In this document: piece by piece, positions 11,297 through 51,899 of the stretch
Position numbering within the stretch: position 1 is the first letter of the stretch
How the letters are laid out: the number at the start of each line of letters is the position of its first letter
Assembly: GCA_011037195.1 (NCBI GenBank)
Contig: JAAEAF010002642.1
Span: 54,197-118,196, forward strand
Origin: Triatoma infestans
Taxonomy: Eukaryota > Arthropoda > Insecta > Hemiptera > Reduviidae
Direction of reading: 5' to 3'
DNA: 64,000 bases
Notes under the pieces: generated by a model
Told to the model about the DNA's origin: nothing
Seen by the model: only the letters and a program-made list of their open reading frames with translations
Database searches by the model: none
Position numbers and translations under genes: made by a program

Positions 11297-13813
11297 CTAG
11301 AATGAAAATCCAGGCCCAGGTTTTAACCATCTAAGTTTCACAACAGACCGAACAAATCGGACCAAAACCTTAAAAGGACACAGCTTAAGATCCTCTACCG
11401 ACATCCTATTCCGGCCGAAGGTCCTAAACCTAATCTCCTCACAACCCAAACAATTCGTCATCAAATGCATGGGTGTTTCCTCCTCAGTTTCACAAACTCT
11501 ACAAAAAGGGTCAGGCACAAGTCCCATTATATAGAGATGTCTCCTTAAACCACAATGCCCAGTGAGGAATCCAACCAGATACCTGAGGGAGGTCCGTGAA
11601 AGACATCGGACCCCACTACTCAAAGCTCCGTCCGGGCCCCCAATGAGCATTTTAGACTGCCGACAACCCACTGCACTCATCCATAAGGATGAGTGCTGTG
11701 AGGTCATCCACGTCTGAAAGCCCGACAAACATGTGTCAGAAGACACACCAACAGCAGGCTCTGGACCAATGAAAGGGAGAGAGGCACCTAATTTGGCAAA
11801 CCTATCCACCTCCTCATTCCCAAAAATTCCCATATGACCTGGAACCCAGACCAGAAGCACATCCTTTAATGAAGAAAGATCTTCCAGTCTTCTAGAACAT
11901 TCCAACACCAATCTGGAAGTGAAGACACATGAATTAAGCGCCTTCAACGCAGCCTGGCTATCCGAGCAGATACAAACACCTTTTAAATTAGTGTTACGCA
12001 CCCTCTCATCCAAAATACAGCAAAGAATTGCATAAACCTCAGCCTGGAAAACGGTGGCCCACTCACCAAGAGGCGCTACCAAATGATCTCCCGTCTCAAA
12101 ATAGACGGCAGCCCCAGACCTACCATCCATCCTGGAACCGTCCGTGTAGCATCGGAGATAATTCTCAGGAATCACACCAGACGGACCCAGGGTTAACCAA
12201 TCTTCCCTAGAAGGCAACCTAACCCTGTAGGAATGACCAAAGACAAAAGTCTTCAAATTCCTATCAGAAGGGAAACCTGTAATGGGAATCCTTAAAAGCA
12301 TCTCACGATAAATGGTAGAATGACCATATCGCTTACCCTGCCAAAAACCTGCCTGTTTAATTCTATAACAGGCTTTCATTGCCTGGTTTTTCACCTCCAC
12401 AAAAAGAGGTGGAATCCCTAACAAAGTCTCCATAGATGCGGTCGGTGTCGTCCGAAACGCTCCAGTCACCGCCAGACAAGCCAAGCGTTGGACTTCTTCC
12501 AACAGCTGCCTAGCAGATCGTGTTTCAATGCGACGCCACCACACCAAAGCCGCATATACCAATCTAGGTTTAATGACCATACAATAAATCCAGAACATCA
12601 TCTTGGGAGTGATTCCCCAGTTCTTACCTACAACTCTTCGACATTGCCAAAAGGAGATTATCGCCTTTTGATGTTGTGTCTTAACATGTTCCGACCAGTT
12701 CAATTTACTGTCGAGAACTACTCCAAGGAACTTCACTGATTTGCTAACCTGTATGGAAGTACCTAACAACCTAGGAGGTGTAAAACCTACTATCTTCCTT
12801 CTATGAGTAAATAGAATTGCCTGGGTCTTAATAGGATTAATAGAAAGACCCTTATCCTGTGTCCAACAATATACCATGTTAAGGGCGCTTTGCATTAGGT
12901 CCGAAATAGTGGACAAACAGCGCCCTAACAATAAAATAACACCATCATCGGCATATGCTTGCACATAAAATCCCGATGAATTCATCCTAACCAAAAGGTC
13001 ATCCATGACGACGCACCACAACTTAGGTGAGAGACAACCCCCTTGAGGGCAACCTCTCCCCACTTGTACTATCATGGTGCGCCCGCCAAGGGAAACCTGT
13101 ATAACCCTACTCCTAAGATAGACACCTATCCAATTGATTAAGACGGGATGTATACCTTTTCGTACCAAGGCATCTTCCAGAGCATCAAACGATACTCTGT
13201 CAAATGCCCCCTCAACATCAAAGAAACACCCTATGGCATATTCTTTTATTTCCAAAGCAGATTCTATCCTTCCGACGAGACAATGTAATGCAGTCTCTGT
13301 CGACTTACCCACAATATAAGCATGTTGGTTAGGATGGAGTGGATGATCCCTTAATGGGCCATCAGTAATATACCTATCCACCAACCTTTCCAAAGTTTTC
13401 AAGAGGAAAGACATAAGACTAATGGGTCTAAATGCCTTGGGGTCGGAGTAGTCATTTCTTCCCGGCTTGGGAATAAAGACTACCCTTACTTCTCTCCATA
13501 ATGTTGGTACATAACCAAACATCAAACATCCTTTAAACAATCTTAACAATTCCTTCGTCAGCACGTCCCCACCCTTTTGCAACAGACAAGGATAAATCCC
13601 GTCCGGTCCAGGTGACTTGAAAGGTGAGAAACTTTGTACTGCCCAACTAACTCTATCATGTGTGACAACCTCATCTAAGGTGGATACATCTTCAAGGTCC
13701 CATCTCCTACCACCCAACAAAGACGAAGCAGCATTTAAACCAATATTATCCGGGAAGTGAGTATCAAGCAAAAGCTGCAGTGTCTCCCCTTCCCCCCCCT
13801 GTAAAGGAACCAT
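11297..13813 (-). CDS. ORF2 3' part: reverse transcriptase, RNase H and zinc knuckle
   Basis: This 838-codon frame makes the cDNA-synthesis part of the element. The RT domain spans residues ~105-345, with motif A around D199 (CFFDVEGAFD), the GCPQGG motif at 254-259 and the catalytic AYADD at 286-290. A connection region follows. RNase H occupies ~553-680, with YTDGS (D558), E592, SDSQA (D618) and GNEEVD (D670). A CCHC knuckle at C771/C774/H783/C788 lies in a DPFCRVCETEEE context. All catalytic residues are present, so this part could still be functional. The first ~12 residues overlap the upstream endonuclease frame in another phase. A run of eight G (minus strand, 13792-13799) lies where seven would keep one frame. 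Antisense frames at 12028-13319 are shadows. Confidence 0.92.
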   Translation of the reverse strand: MVPLQGGEGETLQLLLDTHFPDNIGLNAASSLLGGRRWDLEDVSTLDEVVTHDRVSWAVQSFSPFKSPGPDGIYPCLLQKGGDVLTKELLRLFKGCLMFGYVPTLWREVRVVFIPKPGRNDYSDPKAFRPISLMSFLLKTLERLVDRYITDGPLRDHPLHPNQHAYIVGKSTETALHCLVGRIESALEIKEYAIGCFFDVEGAFDRVSFDALEDALVRKGIHPVLINWIGVYLRSRVIQVSLGGRTMIVQVGRGCPQGGCLSPKLWCVVMDDLLVRMNSSGFYVQAYADDGVILLLGRCLSTISDLMQSALNMVYCWTQDKGLSINPIKTQAILFTHRRKIVGFTPPRLLGTSIQVSKSVKFLGVVLDSKLNWSEHVKTQHQKAIISFWQCRRVVGKNWGITPKMMFWIYCMVIKPRLVYAALVWWRRIETRSARQLLEEVQRLACLAVTGAFRTTPTASMETLLGIPPLFVEVKNQAMKACYRIKQAGFWQGKRYGHSTIYREMLLRIPITGFPSDRNLKTFVFGHSYRVRLPSREDWLTLGPSGVIPENYLRCYTDGSRMDGRSGAAVYFETGDHLVAPLGEWATVFQAEVYAILCCILDERVRNTNLKGVCICSDSQAALKALNSCVFTSRLVLECSRRLEDLSSLKDVLLVWVPGHMGIFGNEEVDRFAKLGASLPFIGPEPAVGVSSDTCLSGFQTWMTSQHSSLWMSAVGCRQSKMLIGGPDGALSSGVRCLSRTSLRYLVGFLTGHCGLRRHLYIMGLVPDPFCRVCETEEETPMHLMTNCLGCEEIRFRTFGRNRMSVEDLKLCPFKVLVRFVRSVVKLRWLKPGPGFSF

Positions 13814-14757
13814 CAGGGTATCGTAGGGTACCTAACTGACTGTCCCTATCCTTACTAAGAATCCGTACCAATCTAGATGATTCCTGGAACGAATTTATAT
13901 CCTCACAAAAGGATCTCCAGGAATTCCTCTTGGCTCTCCTCAGAGCATATTTATATGCTCTTTTAATTCTGTTATAACTATCCCATAATTCCGAAGAATC
14001 AGCAAGGACAGCCTTCCTGTATGAGCCCCTTATCTGTCTCCTTAGTTTTTCCAACGAAGAAGACCACCAGGGATTCTTACTATCCTTAACCACCTTGGGA
14101 GGACAAGACTCCTCGAATGAGGATCTAATGTGTTCATGAAGAATACCAGCCTCCCTTTCCAATTCCTCTATGCCATCAGGGGCTTCTGATTGGATAGTCA
14201 GTTTATCTTCAATAATTCTAGAATATAAACCCCAATCCGCCCTCCTGGGATTCCTATAACTAGCCAGGGTAATTGGATCAATCCCCAGACTAAACCTAAT
14301 CATCCTGTGATCGGAGATGGCAGCCTCAGGACTCACCCTCCAATCCTTAATCAGACCACTAAAATTCCTAGAGGCAAGGGAAATATCAATAACCTGTCTT
14401 CTAATCCCAGTAACAAAAGTGGGTTCATTACCCCTATTCAGGACCTCTAATCGCGTGCCCACCAGGAAATCCATGAGAGCGCGACCCCTACCATTGGTGT
14501 CGCTGCTGCCCCAGACAACATGATGTGCATTCGCGTCACATCCTATTATAATAGGCATGTCATTGGTCTCCGAATACCGAACCAAACCCATGAACTCCTG
14601 AGGAGGAGGAGAGGGGCTATCATAGGGGAAGTAAGCCGAAGCCACAACTACGTCGCGACGACGCCCACCAACCCCCAGTCCAACCCTCACCGCCACCAAG
14701 TCCAGAGAGCAGAACTGTCGAAGCAGTTCTCTAAGGGGCCCCCGGCTGACGAATTTA
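13764..14757 (-). pseudogene. ORF2 5' part: truncated apurinic-type endonuclease
   Basis: This frame carries the C-terminal two-thirds of the endonuclease that nicks the target. GCDANAHH..WG lies at residues 53-63 when counting from the TTG codon at 14699. IDISLAS starts at residue 104, and the catalytic SDH is at 129-131. A linker with an 'NPWW..SLEKLRRQIR' stretch then leads to the RT. The open frame extends upstream of 14699 through RELLRQFCSLDLVAVRV to about 14757, where it runs into AT-rich DNA with stops. The N-terminal part, with its metal-binding Asn and Glu, is missing. It ends by frameshift at the G run at 13792-13799 and is best read as the truncated start of the same polyprotein. 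Confidence 0.85.
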
Positions 14758-33014: not shown

Positions 33015-33911
33015 TTAAATTAATAAAGCTCTTACTTTTAAGCTATTTATAAAAAATGCATAAATATTATTTATTTTACTGACATCATTAATATGCAAAA
33101 AATCCTCTAATGTATTAACCAAAGCAAGATAGTTCCTCAGATATTTACTTCTTTGGCCAATAAACATTGGGCAGGAAAATAAGAAATGTGCTACCATGTC
33201 CATCTCACCCCTGAAACAAACTGGACAAAGTGCATGGTCCGAAAACACATACTTTCTGCCCTCAATATATAATGATGTCTTCTTTTTATATGCCAAACGT
33301 AATTGGGCCACCAGTCTTATTTTTTTTATATTCACATTAAAATATAAATATTCGTGCTTTATTCCAAATGTACAAATATTAGGGTAATACAAGTTGTATG
33401 TACCATTGCAAACAGAGTCGATATCCTTACTGATTAAATTATTTTCAAAAGAAATTAACAAATCTTTACACCTATTATTAATAATATCAACACTTCTACA
33501 CTGGTACAAACTTTCCTCTCCTATTATCGTCAAATAGCACCTCAACTCGGAGACCCAATTCAAAGGAATATTTTGATTATCAATTAATTCTAGGAGACTA
33601 TTAAAACATATTTTGGGGAGTTTATCATTGGGCATACCTAGCAAACCAATCCACCATCCTAACATTTTTTTTAAAATTTTAAGTTGGGTGTGAGACCTAC
33701 ATAACTCTAGCCTTATGTAAGCATTTGGAGAATGAAGAGGTAAATTCAATAATAACTTAAAAAAGTTAATTTGACCTCGTTCAACCTGATTTAAACTTTG
33801 CGAACCCCAAAATTCGGCCATATAAAGTAGATTAGTTTGCGAGATAGCGTCAAACAATGAAACTTTTGAACTCCAGGAATCTGATTTACAGGATTTTAAC
33901 AAATTTAACAC
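33015..33911 (-). pseudogene. C-terminal domain with CCHC knuckle (element at 32.9-36.3 kb)
   Basis: This 298-codon piece is the post-RT region. LLYMAEFWGSQ (residues 28-38) corresponds to the 'YG.E.W' segment, and a GWWIGLLGMP stretch is at ~85-94. The knuckle is C229-X2-C232-X9-H242-X4-C247, with ALCPVCFRGEMDMVAHFLF around it. It ends naturally at KVRALLI. The RT thumb lies between this piece and the RT frame, at 33912-34100 in a third phase (recognisable as KFIYLGVPF). The antisense frame at 33196-33387 is a shadow. Confidence 0.8.
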
Positions 33912-34099
33912 GGAGGAGTTGGCTGCAGTACATTTCGTACGAAATAATTACCAGCGTTTGAAAAACGTCCTGATGCCGAAAATGGAACGCCCAAATAAAT
34001 AAACTTATTGTTTGTTTCAATAATTTTATCATCATAATAAAAATTTTTAATTTTACCAAGCCTGCCCCTTTTATGAAATGGTATTATTATTGTTTTTTT

Positions 34100-34705
34100 T
34101 TAATTTACCATTAAATCATTCTCTTTACAATAATCCCTGAGCAAGTTCAATTTAAATTGCACATCCCTCCATGAAGATGCCAACAGCACAATGTCGTCAG
34201 CATACATCAACATTAATACGTCTTCACTATTGCATATATTAATTCCCTCAGCTTTTCTTTCATGAAAAAAGTCCAATATATTTGATATATGTAATGAGAA
34301 TAATAAGGGACTCAAAACTTCTCCTTGCAATACACCCCTTGTTACCCTAATACCTTTAGAAACTTTTAGGCCATCAGAAATTCTTATTGAGGCGGATACA
34401 TAGATATTTTTGATTATGCGAACTAATTTAGCACTGACTCCCATCTGATATAGTTTCAACCATAATTTCGAGTGACTAACGGAATCAAACGCACGCTTGA
34501 AATCTATAAATATGCCGAATATTTTCCTTCTCTTAAGCCTTAAGTTTATATTAATAACAGAGGACAGTGTAAAAATACAGTCTCTGCATCCCATACTTTT
34601 TCTAAGTTCCATTTGCTCCCTTGGTAACAAACCTCTTTCGTCGATCCATCTCGTTAGTCTTGTATTTATGATATTTGTAAATATCTTAATTACTGAATTG
34701 CACAA
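34100..34705 (-). pseudogene. reverse transcriptase core (element at 32.9-36.3 kb)
   Basis: The 201-codon frame contains RT motifs: NIINTRLTRWID, FIDFKRAFDS with catalytic D68, RGVLQGEVLSPLLF at 123-136, and MYADDIVLLA with D170-D171. All catalytic Asp residues are intact. It enters by frame change from the linker piece near 34700 (the DPYNYRGIALCNSV stretch crosses both frames) and leaves at an A8 run near 34090. Confidence 0.85.
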
Positions 34706-35277
34706 AGCGATTCCGCGATAATTATATGGATCTCACCTTTTTTATGCAATAGCATCATTTTGATCGAGGACCAAGCTTTGGGAATTTGCTCATTAAACCA
34801 GATTTTATTTAGCATATTCAATAAATAGTGCAACCAAGGGTTGTTCAGCATTTTGAAAATCTCATTCGGAATCAGATCAAAACCGGGGGCTTTGTTATTT
34901 TTACTATTGTTTATACTCTCTAACAACTCGTCTAAGGTTATATCGCTATCTAAATCTGGATTAAAAGTACTTATAAATAAAGAGTCGTCATAGGGTACAA
35001 CCGGTAACATCCGTTGGTAAAAATTCTCCCACTGTTCAATGCTTAGCTTATTATTACAAACTTTCTTCTTACGAAATTTCCTAATTGCTCCCCAGAATTC
35101 AGAAGAATTATGTATATCTCTAATTACCAGAGTTAAATTATCATAATACAATTTCTTAGAAATTTTAATTACTTTTTTATACATAGTTTTAGATCCCAGA
35201 TACCTATTTAGATATTCCGCACTGAAAGAATTTTTATAGCAGAGTTTTAAAAACTTATTCATATTCTTTTTTGCCAC
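34690..35277 (-). pseudogene. endonuclease-RT linker and RT start (element at 32.9-36.3 kb)
   Basis: The frame carries the linker between endonuclease and RT. DITLDELLESINNSKNNKAP then GFDLIPNEIFKML is the typical 'A...LKNNKAPG.DGI..E..K' region. IPKAWSSIKMMLLHKKG is the first RT block. It overlaps the endonuclease frame by 19 nt in another phase, next to an A6 run (35303-35308 on the plus strand as T). Confidence 0.8.
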
Positions 35278-36275
35278 TTGGCAATCAAAGTTGTACCAGG
35301 GTTTTTTGAACTAAAACTTGTACTACCTAATTTTATTGATTTTAACATTCCACAATCCTTCATAATTAAGTGCATAGATGTAATAAAATTATCATTCAGT
35401 TGGCTCACACAATCACTATTGAAGTAAATACCGGAAGAACCCTCCAGCCTCAAAGTGAATTGAGTACTGCTTATAAAATTTCTATTTAATGAAAGGACTG
35501 GATCAACGCTGTCTAGTGCCACATTAAGTTGTTCTTCTTTTTCATTATTTATCAGAGTTAATAAACAAATAAAATGATCAGATGTGTGGATATTATTTAT
35601 AATTTCGAAATCCTGGATAAATGGAATACAATTTGCGGACAACCAAACCATATCAATAATACTACAACATTGCTTACCCAAAAAAGTGTATTTGGCTGGA
35701 AAATCACCTAGGGTTCGCCCATTACTAATAAACATACCAAAAGATTCAAATACATCAATCAGCTTTTTGCCTCTGACATCAATATCAATATCCAATGAAG
35801 ATCTGTTTCCATATAAATTAGAGTTTAAAAACATATCATCATCTGAATTAAAACTATTTAATAAACCAACTTTAGCATTATAATCCCCGCCTATAATTAC
35901 ATTTACATCATTATAATTCATCATTATATTATTTAATTCAATTTCAAGATCATCAATTAAACAGTTATTATCATTACCGGGCTTCCAATATACCAAACCC
36001 ACCACATATAATTCAGCATTAATATTTATAAGTAAACATAGAAACCAAGGTTTTGAGATTAATACTTGTACAAAAGAACAAAGATCTTTCTTCAAGAAAA
36101 TAATCAGGCCACCTGAAGCTCGCCCTTTTTTATGCACTTTGACAGCGTTCACAAAATAATAATCGTAATTATTTAAAAACCTTGGAAAAATAGCACTATT
36201 CACAGAATTTAACCATGTTTCGGAAAAACATAAAACATCAATATTTTTTAACTGAAAAATTTCAGTTAGAAAATG
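35259..36275 (-). pseudogene. apurinic-type endonuclease (element at 32.9-36.3 kb)
   Basis: Endonuclease blocks in order: LCFSETWLN (E29), the GGLIIFLK strand, VVGLVYWKP, IIGGDYNAKVG (139-147) and HTSDHF with the catalytic SDH at 242-244. These are the metal- and phosphate-binding residues of AP endonuclease-like nickases. The open frame nominally begins at 36305, but its first ~10 residues (MILAKRPRSD) are translated from antisense U2 snRNA and are not part of the element. The element's own sequence starts at about 36275, so the N-terminal Asn-containing block is lost. Confidence 0.85.
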
Positions 36276-36317
36276 ATCGCTTCTCGGCCTTTTGGCTAAG
36301 ATCAAAGTGTAGTATCT
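36276..36317 (+). pseudogene. 5' fragment of U2 snRNA (nt 1-42)
   Basis: The plus strand matches U2 snRNA from its first nucleotide: ATCGCTTCTCGGCC, TTTTGGCTAAGATC, then AAAGTGTAGTATCT, including the GUAGUA branch-point pairing segment. The match stops at nt 42, where sequence becomes the target duplication; the last three bases (TCT) belong to both. Without the Sm site and 3' half it cannot be a functional snRNA gene. It is antisense to the attached retrotransposon. Confidence 0.9.
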
Positions 36318-48745: not shown

Positions 48746-50156
48746 CCTTCTCCCTTGGCTTTCGTCAATTAACTAGGTTCGGAGACCCTATTTTGGGTAC
48801 TGTGTTTGTCCTTGTCTGTAAAGTGTAGAGTGTATGTAGTTAAAGTGTATTGTGGACTGTTCTGATGAAGTGTATGGAGTAATGAGCTGTGATAACCCGT
48901 GAGGTCGCTACTCCCCAAGTAAATACATGCAACAGATACCCCTTGCGGGCAATTAATTAAGGTAAGAGAAAAACAATGAGTGTTCCATACCAGACTTTTG
49001 TCAAGGTCTAATACAATCTGTAATTATTATTTAATTTCGATGAAGAGCCATGTGAAGTCACGTTTCAGAGGAATTCTGATGGGCCGTGTGTACGAAAAAA
49101 ATTCGTCAATTATTGACAATTATTTTTCAACCTTTTTTGGCTTCTGCAAAAAAACTTCACGAAGCATTATAAAATTCGTAATGACATATGTTTATTTCTT
49201 TAGATATTATTAATAAAATTAATTATTACAGATTTATAGTTCATATTATGATTTTATAAGATTAACTTTAAGCACAAAATATGTGCATAATGTCAATGGA
49301 AATCGTGCTTCCTGGGATTCTTTTTTTTAAAAATTCCACCTTTAGTTGTTAATTTTGTTGAAGCTGGGAGATAGTATTATTCTTGAAGGATTAGCAAGAG
49401 GTGGTTTGTAAAGGTAGGGATTATGTTGAAAATTTCATTTTCTCAGGAATGGGTTAAAAGGGGGGTATGATACTATGTTACTAAGAGGCAGCTGTGTAAT
49501 GTACTGGTGGCGCGTTGAAGACGAAGGGACGTTTGTAAAAGTGCGCCGCCTCCTCCATCCCTCGCACCCAATACCAACCTTGCCGCCTCTCACAAAGTAA
49601 TAAAAATGTTTCTTCAACAACAAATGGCGGTCCTAGCCTGTCTTGTAAGACATTATTAACAATTATCTTGACTATCAAACCTTATTCTTCTATTATCCTT
49701 TTTCATCCTTCACTCCGGGGTTCTTGCCCTCGTATCTGTATTCCACACATGGTCGCCCACTAATGTTTCCTAGTTGAAGGATATATGCATCAACTTATAT
49801 TAATTAATCATTTCTGTTTCCTTATCTTGTTTAGCTTTAGCCATTATATGCCTTTGTAGTTGTCCGTTCATGGGGCAATGTGATGAGTCCGCTGTTGTAA
49901 GAGATATACGGCGACCATGTCAAATTTTCGAAAATGAGTTTCAACGCAGAAACATGTCTTGAGGTCCTTGTGTATAAAACAAATATTTTAATGAATGGAT
50001 AGATAGAGACAGATAGATAGATAAATCATTGTATTTCATGTAAAATTACAATTACAGTGGGATCTGTTTTGTTTTCTAACTTCTAGCATTTATTTAAAAA
50101 GAAAATGAAATGGCGATATCATTGCAATCTGGCCGCCTGCAGATCTCTGGTAGATG
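48746..50156. other. mostly unassigned; one ~1 kb-repeat fragment
   Basis: About 49885-49985 shares the GTCAAATTTTCG..ATGAGTTT and TTGAGGTCC blocks with the start of the ~1 kb repeat family. A GC-richer segment at 49490-49640 and a TAGA microsatellite near 50000-50025 have no recognised content. Confidence 0.4.
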
Positions 50157-50491
50157 TGTAGTAGCACCCATCCACAGCAAAGAGAATGCAACCACAGCAG
50201 AGTGAAGAGACGCCCTCTCTGGTTAACAGAGACTACTCTCTGACTTAGGCAGGCTAGAGTGGGGGAATCTGTGTATATAAGCCAGTGGGAATCTATCTAA
50301 AGGGATCTATCATATACAACCATACAACTGTACACCAGTCGTCGCATCGTATCATATCTCTACTCTCATCATTCATTCTATCATTTTTATTATAAAGTCC
50401 AGTGCAATTAGTGTAAACTTAGCTAAATTATATTAGTGTCAGCATATCTCGTTCATTTAATCAAACCTAATTTCTCTCCTCAACAACCCCA
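50157..50491 (+). repeat. LTR with TATA box
   Basis: It starts TGTAGTAGCACCC and ends CAACAACCCCA, six bases before the primer-binding site. TGTGTATATAAGCC at 50269-50282 is a good TATA box, so U3 runs to about 50300. The following CATACAACTGTACACCAGT lies near the start of R. The late part (AAAGTCCAGTGCAATTAGTG and GTCAGCATATC) resembles the LTR-like repeats at 605-990 and 44452. Confidence 0.75.
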
Positions 50492-50497
50492 TTATAT

Positions 50498-50544
50498 TGG
50501 TGGCAGCGGTGGAATACGAACCCACGCCTCCGAAGAGACTGGTG
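50498..50544 (+). other. primer-binding site extended to the 3' half of tRNA-Leu
   Basis: Reverse-complemented, the segment is CACCAG (anticodon stem 3' strand with position 38), TCTCTTCGGAGGC (long variable arm), GTGGGTTCG then TATTCCAC (T-arm, two differences from the usual tRNA-Leu), CGCTGCC, A, CCA. The terminal CCA is not encoded in eukaryotic tRNA genes, so the source was the mature primer tRNA. A normal primer-binding site is 8-18 nt; this one is 47 nt. Confidence 0.8.
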
Positions 50545-50720
50545 TACAGTTGTATGGTTGTACATCAATGATCCCTTTAGATAGATTCCCACTGGCTTAT
50601 ACACACAGGTTCTCCCACTCTAGCCAGTCTAAGTCAGAGAGTAGCCTCTGTTAACCAGAGAGGGCCTCTCTTCTCTCTGCTGTGGTTGCATTCTCTTTGC
50701 TATGGATGGGTGCTATTACA
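50538..50720 (-). repeat. inverted copy of LTR nt 1-183
   Basis: It matches 50157-50339 in reverse complement at roughly nine in ten positions by eye. It begins inside ACTGGTG, a 7-nt string shared by the tRNA copy (50538-50544) and by the LTR (complement at 50333-50339), which marks the junction. Confidence 0.8.
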
Positions 50721-51899
50721 CATGTCAGTTGAACATTCATGGAGTGACGTACAACACTAATTTTAAAACAGTCTACTTCTATTTATTATTTTACAATTTT
50801 ATTACTCTATGGACAGATGCATTCAACTAATTTAGAAAACGAATAAATATTTGTGAAAAACAAAATTAAACTCCACGGAACAGATTTAATATTTAAATCT
50901 TTTTAAGAATGAGAAATTAGGTTTCATTTGTATGAAATAATGATCATTATTATTTTTAAAACAATCCTAACAAAGTCCTTATTTAGGTTAACATTAAACA
51001 ATTAATAATTATGGTTAATAAAAATATAGCGCAAAACTTTTTCCAAATATAGTTGTTAATAGAAAAAATAAGTTATTTATCATCAGTGGTCGACCTTTCA
51101 AGATATTAGCAGGCTTTCCAGAGAAAGGAAAACCTGTTTTCTTTGAGCTGGTGGCATATAAGAAAAACGAAATGTAGCTTGTACGTATAAGTTGTGTATA
51201 AAAGTCTATTCTTTTCTGTCATGTACTTTACTTCTATTTGAAGCTTAGCAGAGGAAGAAGAAAGAAAGTGGAAAAAAGAGCAAACGGTTTTACTTGGTGT
51301 ACACCCGCCTCAGGCTACTCACCCGTCTCAGTATGTCTGTAGTAGCAACACCATCTCTGGCCCCCTTCATTATTACTGGAGAAGGCAGGCAAGTTCTTGT
51401 AAATATATTCCTTTTCGATGTAAATTGAAAACAAGGATCCCTTACCCTCTGCAACGAGGTCAGCAGTGTTCAAGACTCTCTCTCGCTCTCTCTCTCTCTC
51501 GCCACAACATTTCCCCCTCAGACCTTGTACCATTCACAAAGAAAATATGCTAACTAGATTCAAAGAAAAGATCCTGTCGTTTTAGTCCAGACTTGGCTCG
51601 TTTAGTGTTTGTTGTTCTCTATTCAAATATAAAAGTGCAGGAGGCTACTATTATCCTACCACAGAACTTTGAGTAAATCTTGTTTTGATTATAATAGCCT
51701 ACGGAGATTTAACTAGCAAACTAAAATAATATTACAAAATAAGAAAGGATTACAATAATATAAATCGCTTGAAGTCAATTATGTTATAAAAATAATTAAT
51801 TTCTTTTTTATGAACGATAAAACAAAAAAAAGTAAAAATGATTTGGCTGTCAGTTCGAATATATGAGTATGAGCTTTATCTAAACTTGGCCATCTTTCG
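50721..51899. other. unassigned stretch with a CT microsatellite
   Basis: (CT)n lies at 51476-51501. The region around 51290-51540 is somewhat GC-richer but has no recognised motif. The frame at 51315-51533 runs through the microsatellite. Confidence 0.4.

Follow-up and report, generated by a model that had tools for sequence, protein, structure and literature searches.

What kind of event joins a complete LTR to a piece of tRNA and then to an inverted piece of the same LTR? This question is raised by positions 50157-50720 of the window, by which we mean the whole 64,000-nt stretch of Triatoma infestans DNA that was analysed. The first-pass annotation had described there a full LTR, a 47-nt copy of tRNA-Leu reaching to position 38 and, in inverted orientation, LTR nt 1-183, and our alignments recovered these parts: the order is a 340-nt LTR, a single T, the 47-nt reverse complement of tRNA-Leu and the inverted LTR nt 1-183/184. 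The LTR (50157..50496, plus strand, TGTAGTAGC...CATTATA) belongs to a family with many genomic copies. Its U3 contains a TATA-like box recognised by eye (TATATAAG, 50274..50281, plus strand), and the word CACCAGTC at 50333..50340 (plus strand) is identical to tRNA-Leu positions 38-45 and would be the site where the 3' end of the strong-stop DNA annealed.

Regarding the tRNA part, 50498..50544 (minus strand) align to mature tRNA-Leu(AAG) from A76 at 50498 to C38 at 50544, and 11 nt of it, TGGTGGCAGCG at 50498..50508 (plus strand), are the core of the primer-binding site (PBS), as comparison with ordinary relatives indicates. The copy has two mismatches to the tRNA, C61>T and A58>T, the latter at 50516 (minus strand), which may reflect misincorporation opposite m1A58. 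The alignment covers tRNA positions 38-76, so the 5' half with the A box is missing. Genomic tRNA-Leu genes (L029-L032) run past C38 into G37, which the window copy does not, so that the identity stops where it had been said to stop. ARAGORN found no tRNA gene in the window, and all the Rfam matches for 49900-51000 were under the gathering score.

The inverted LTR, nt 1-184 by inverted-repeat comparison, occupies 50537..50720 (minus strand), and its first 8 nt (50537-50544) are common to the tRNA copy. The annotation had placed a shared 7-mer, ACTGGTG, at this junction; the shared word is there, but it is one nucleotide longer, reading GACTGGTG at 50537-50544 and CACCAGTC at 50333-50340. Because of these 8 shared nucleotides, the tRNA end of the window copy, taken alone, can be placed only between positions 38 and 45. 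The inverted arms, 50154-50340 and 50537-50723, are 187 nt long and 93% complementary. Outside the unit, GATG (50153..50156) and CATG (50721..50724, read from the sequence) are candidate target-site duplications that match at three of four bases, which is weak when taken alone.

Since the same architecture recurs in the genome, chance is excluded for the window structure. With the 564-nt unit as query against the 941-Mb assembly, the best 40 of 3450 candidates included near-complete structures in L002-L005 and partial ones in L006-L008. The aligned L001-L008 show a U3 arm, a tRNA 3' half and an inverted U5-R-U3, with two different tRNA-Leu bodies; some arms are shortened (L005, L006, L007 and also L050). 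A tRNA-Leu query found 22 places, namely nine tRNA-Leu genes and 13 places with the 3' half only. The first-pass annotation had advised a search for LTRs joined to more than 18 nt of tRNA, and we could score 39 LTR-joined tRNA-Leu copies in this genome (18 AAG and 21 TAG), in several LTR families, with C38 as the commonest end. We left out duplicate loci (L036, L037, L039, L049), tRNA gene loci, the second rows of L010, L057 and L067, L074, whose tRNA-like piece lacks CCA, and L018, L025, L060 and L063, in which the match spans 18 nt or is due to chance; the later fetches L075-L104 are outside the 39. In all copies but L051 the tRNA 3' half adjoins U5-like sequence, as judged by eye. Two further searches (best 40 of 57 and best 40 of 47 candidates) gave no new copy reaching C38, and therefore the long, C38-reaching class may be near-complete within the reach of such searches. 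A recurrent class over several LTR families, together with the sister class ending at position 59 that is described below, goes beyond what the annotation had foreseen.

Some members of the set have peculiarities. In L010, L028, L056 and L061 the LTR or tRNA pieces lie beside a common repeat (around CTACGAGTTTGTTG or its continuation), in tandem in L010. L043 combines a forward LTR with a foldback, and TAATG flanks the whole at either side. In the tRNA copy of L067 the anticodon loop is inverted (CTGGTGCCTAAAACCAG), a pattern that annealing of two strong-stop ends via the anticodon stem might give.

An extended PBS as the normal state of the parental family would be a simple answer, and the annotation had named it as fatal to its own reading. 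We rejected it on the three ordinary relatives compared, L024, L097 and L098, in all of which the PBS is TGGTGGCAGCG, 11 nt long, and is followed by leader sequence. As a sign of a Ty3/gypsy parent, which would have a gag-pol of gypsy type, L024 offers a 161-aa ORF that looks gag-like by eye, its single Pfam match, SAP, being sub-threshold (15.1 bits vs 23.9). L088 is an exception, an ordinary-looking element in which the PBS matches the tRNA over 18 nt by eye; the primer sequence may be inherited there.

The tRNA copies tell us what was copied. The CCA is complete in 36 of the 39 (coverage of position 76), and hence a mature tRNA was the template. Position 58 is non-A in 22/39 copies (19 T, 2 C and 1 G) and plain A in the other 17. 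Over the rest of 38-76, with the variable arm left out, there were 62 mismatches in 1230 cells, and the binomial P for the excess of non-A at 58 is about 6e-19. The position with the second-highest number of mismatches is 56, in a CpG, with 7/39, six of them C>T. All nine tRNA-Leu genes found keep A58. Some queries carried T58, which possibly biases the set toward T58 copies; in the subsets found with A58 queries, non-A58 was seen in 7/13 places of the first tRNA-Leu search and in 4/9 new half-copies of a later one. An m1A causes arrest of reverse transcriptase (RT) as well as misincorporation, with a low C signal for m1A followed by A (PMC4787781). The misreading signature indicates that the copied tRNA was methylated, and the template was very probably a methylated mature tRNA. 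The proposed read-through of m1A58 is supported in this way across the class. The tRNA copies of L066 and L070, which look like related loci, share an unusual G53>C, and this pair may be one event copied.

Where the copies stop is the second clue. The first aligned tRNA position was C38 in 25 of the 39 copies; the other 14 begin at 39 (4 copies), at 27, 42 and 43 (2 each) and at 34, 37, 50 and in the variable arm (one each). C38 adjoins G37, which in the tRNA-Leu of this species we take to be m1G37, a block to RT. If the LTR itself has CACCAGTC, the tRNA end may lie anywhere from 38 to 45. The C38 end is also found where the partner resembles an LTR terminus (L047 and L069, by eye) and in loci where we found no inverted LTR arm (L053, L059, L065, L066, L068); in L040, L053, L055, L061 and L066 the partner sequence was not recognisable. 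This recurrent end favours the annotation's suggestion of a stop at modified position 37. Two loci depart from it in their own way. In L034 the joint is at about nt 70 of U3, with AAGTCTCACCAG; here RT may have passed position 37 and gone on, making errors, as far as C27. In L052 the tRNA copy ends near 39 and seemingly continues, by eye, in a direct-orientation LTR at GGACTGG, as if there had been a jump to the template of the other strand.

There is also a second class, with only 18 nt of tRNA, which ends at 59, one base from m1A58. A query of tRNA 59-76 plus U5 (best 40 of 1241 candidates) gave 42 rows, of which 13 were known and 21 were fetched; the remaining 8 begin at query 8, that is, at the 11-nt core, and were left out of the fetched set. 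Three of these loci are foldbacks with both arms (L082/L099, L086/L101, L093/L103). In L083/L100 and L089/L102 the left part is forward-U3-like, but we found no inverted arm. L084/L104 forms a tail-to-tail palindrome, and others are tandem LTR-18 nt-LTR joins. L090, L094 and L096 are altered, which makes it difficult to assign them.

A fixed end in the anticodon loop is also what would be expected if the primer were a tRNA 3' half cut in that loop, so that C38 would be a run-off end and not a stop before m1G37. Although tRNA halves are common, their cuts usually fall at 33-36, and the other fixed end, 59, fits a methylation and not a cut. Furthermore, L056 aligns to C27, with 7 nt common to a neighbouring repeat, and L034 seemingly does so too, with gaps. 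We therefore judge a cut primer improbable and go on with a stop of RT at m1G37.

How the tRNA end found its partner can be read from the joints. In 18 C38-type foldbacks we compared the LTR 8-mer at the joint, read by eye, with CACCAGTC. The joint was the best or one of the top five of 363 LTR positions in 14 of them (L001-L008, L035, L038, L043, L048, L070, L071), eight of which (L001-L008) are one LTR family and not independent; L033, L050, L062 and L064 have no good match. The annealing to LTR sequence that the annotation had proposed through ACTGGTG agrees with this. The three joints of the 59 type lie at ATCGCATC or ATTGCATC and match ATCCCACC at 6, 5 and 6 of 8 bases, scores attained at 5, 14 and 3 of 363 positions, which is a weaker resemblance than in the C38 type. 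As the joints resemble the respective tRNA ends, C38 and 59 ends each tend to use their own look-alike site. A nearest-neighbour test of the arms, comparing one molecule with two, gave a star-like LTR family and no separation of the two.

The same strong-stop ends, formed by the same earlier steps, might have been joined by host microhomology end joining of the polymerase theta type and not by RT priming. Tail-to-tail joins of these ends in L025, L084/L104, L047 and L069 (partly by eye) speak for it, as do the tandem LTR-18 nt-LTR joins in L057, L077, L081, L085, L091, L092, L094 and L095 and the ends of L059 and L065, which adjoin sequence where no inverted LTR arm was found. Nevertheless, the CACCAGTC joints lie about 155-335 nt from the PBS and would leave long flaps needing trimming, and the intact foldbacks end at U3 nt 1, 7/16 of them with duplications, as an RT product handed to integrase would. 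We regard end joining as possible and rather doubtful, and RT priming at the look-alike site remains the preferred reading. In most of these tandem joins the 18-nt PBS is followed by a short GA before the second LTR; L081 and L085 have two successive joins. All these loci look like joined unprocessed ends. In L078, L079 and L080 sequence that is pol-like and sense by eye is joined to tRNA 59-76 and inverted U5, with a near-identical joint three times.

Regarding integration, both U3 termini were sought in 18 chosen palindromes, and after L034 and L050 failed 16 were left. Exact direct repeats of 4/5 bp lie outside the termini in seven of these (L003, L033, L035, L048, L062, L071, L072), whereas mispaired flanks gave 0/240 in a cross-pair control. 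The other nine, the window copy with its 3/4 match among them, have no exact repeat. Four of six fetched 59-type loci had both arms by eye; exact repeats are present in L099 (GAGG) and L104 (TATT) and absent in L101 and L103. In loci without an inverted arm, for example L059, no convincing target duplication was found, and the candidates of L047, L054, L055 and L066 were dismissed because no LTR end can be recognised at them. L033 lies within a repeat, and the best 40 of 1752 candidate paralogues all align across its joined flanks. The site is unbroken in eight fetched paralogues. Seven of them have one GTCC, to which L107 adds a further C, and in L109 a triplet is altered. About seven bases of the repeat are missing from L033, slightly upstream of the insertion. 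This unbroken empty site means that the L033 palindrome entered as a single unit.

These results bear on two further explanations. The inverted LTR could come from a later independent insertion or rearrangement, as the annotation had allowed in case it had a duplication of its own, and nested and tandem LTRs do occur in the window LTR family. The duplications found are around whole palindromes, and together with the recurrence and the L033 empty site they make this scarcely credible; for L033 it is refuted by the empty site, for the window copy not directly. The palindromes could also be a single non-autonomous family replicating as a unit. Eight copies have the LTR family and the joint in common, L066 and L070 share G53>C, L078-L080 show nearly one joint, of another kind, and L010 is a local tandem duplication. 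However, L001-L008 contain both isoacceptors and both position-58 states, with no shared tRNA change besides 58, and the same structure with other joints is found in other LTR families. We thus think such a family very improbable, and as a general answer the mixed tRNA copies rule it out, although L066/L070 may be one copied event.

Read from sequence, then, these are tRNA-Leu-primed LTR elements in which LTR and PBS run into a copy of mature tRNA that ends most often at C38, the tRNA end is joined, mostly at a look-alike site, to an inverted LTR piece, and insertion of the units, which have a U3 terminus at either side, duplicated 4-5 bp. We consider it quite probable that the window unit and its class are an integrated dead end of reverse transcription, that is, foldbacks of plus-strand strong-stop DNA. 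Synthesis of this DNA would read through m1A58 and halt at m1G37. In that case the 3' tail of the products extends beyond the 11-nt PBS and cannot pair; plus-strand transfer could thus not be completed, and the products would stay free to fold. The 3' end, ...GACTGGTG, may then anneal by microhomology to CACCAGTC of plus-strand LTR DNA, either its own or a second strong-stop strand, and be extended to the 5' end of the template strand, giving U3 at both ends. That intact inverted copies stop at U3 nt 1 would follow from such extension, and it points to plus-strand DNA started at the polypurine tract, and not genomic RNA, as the probable template. The element's integrase would finally join the two U3 ends. 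Two overlapping strong-stop strands would be the easiest route to a linear duplex with two U3 ends; a single hairpin, which has only one integrable end, needs more steps, one of which would have to yield a linear duplex. The integration of a palindromic product, as first proposed, is supported by the duplications and the one empty site.

In HIV-1, RT copies its primer tRNA-Lys3 and stops mainly at m1A58; a minor strong-stop product, with its end at modified A37, does not act as a template for transfer (PMC13191261). In our class, products of this sort seem to have been folded, integrated and inherited. The Helenus TRIMs are small non-autonomous LTR derivatives with tRNA-related sequence and, in animals, 4-bp duplications (PMC10886601). 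There the tRNA-derived pol III promoter is inside the LTRs, whereas the 3' tRNA half found here, with its CCA, is no part of the LTR and separates inverted LTR pieces. TRIMs, Helenus included, have direct LTRs with PBS and PPT between them, and in the window unit the LTR pieces are inverted with a T and the tRNA copy between. Solo LTRs of the window family, several with short target duplications by eye, have the same LTR without tRNA and without inverted arm, and the window unit is not a single LTR directly flanked by a target duplication. Membership in TRIMs, Helenus-type elements, solo LTRs and tRNA SINEs thus fails on defining features. The window unit does have two of the features of the foldback class, a tRNA copy longer than 18 nt with CCA and an inverted LTR ending at U3 nt 1.

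Retroviral 2-LTR junctions are aberrant joins of LTR ends. The class resembles both these junctions and strong-stop self-priming, in its aberrant LTR-end joins and its foldback priming; the reference list of PMC10986323 includes a title on self-priming of minus-strand strong-stop DNA that depends on TAR. In the open-access literature, from which most older virology is missing, we found neither a report of such products integrated as U3-U3 palindromes nor an account of LTR palindromes that contain primer tRNA and have integrated. Olsen and Swanstrom reportedly described palindromic defective retrovirus DNA in 1985, which may be the nearest precedent. The short PBS of Ty1 likewise leaves part of the tRNA copy on strong-stop DNA as an unpaired tail; Lauermann and Boeke are said to have found, in 1994 and 1997, that its primer tRNA is not inherited, and we know of no palindromic Ty1 insertions. 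We regard the class as a variant of a known sort, an aberrant reverse-transcription product that is here recurrent, integrated and informative on tRNA methylation.

With less confidence, we lean towards a wider reading: dead-end strong-stop DNA would regularly be palindromised via its tRNA-derived tail, integrated by two U3 ends and become heritable, its scars recording, for each copy, how the germ-line primer tRNA was methylated when transposition took place (a stop at 37 and misreading at 58). Past tRNA modification may thus be legible in genomes, like a fossil record, in every case where the strong-stop end does not match the PBS. If this is true, DNA alone would show how the RT of LTR retrotransposons behaves on methylated tRNA in the germ line, dead-end products would gain a fate, and integrase would seem able to use two U3 ends. 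Other primers, which should stop at their own Watson-Crick-face methylations, would offer a test bed. Reverse transcription beyond the normal stop in the primer tRNA seems to have given foldbacks that entered this genome many times, and their apparent legacy is a record of methyl-group positions on an ancient tRNA. Elsewhere in the window, 11297-14699 and 33015-36305 (minus strand) hold two LINE-like elements, with ORFs that appear reverse-transcriptase-like by eye.
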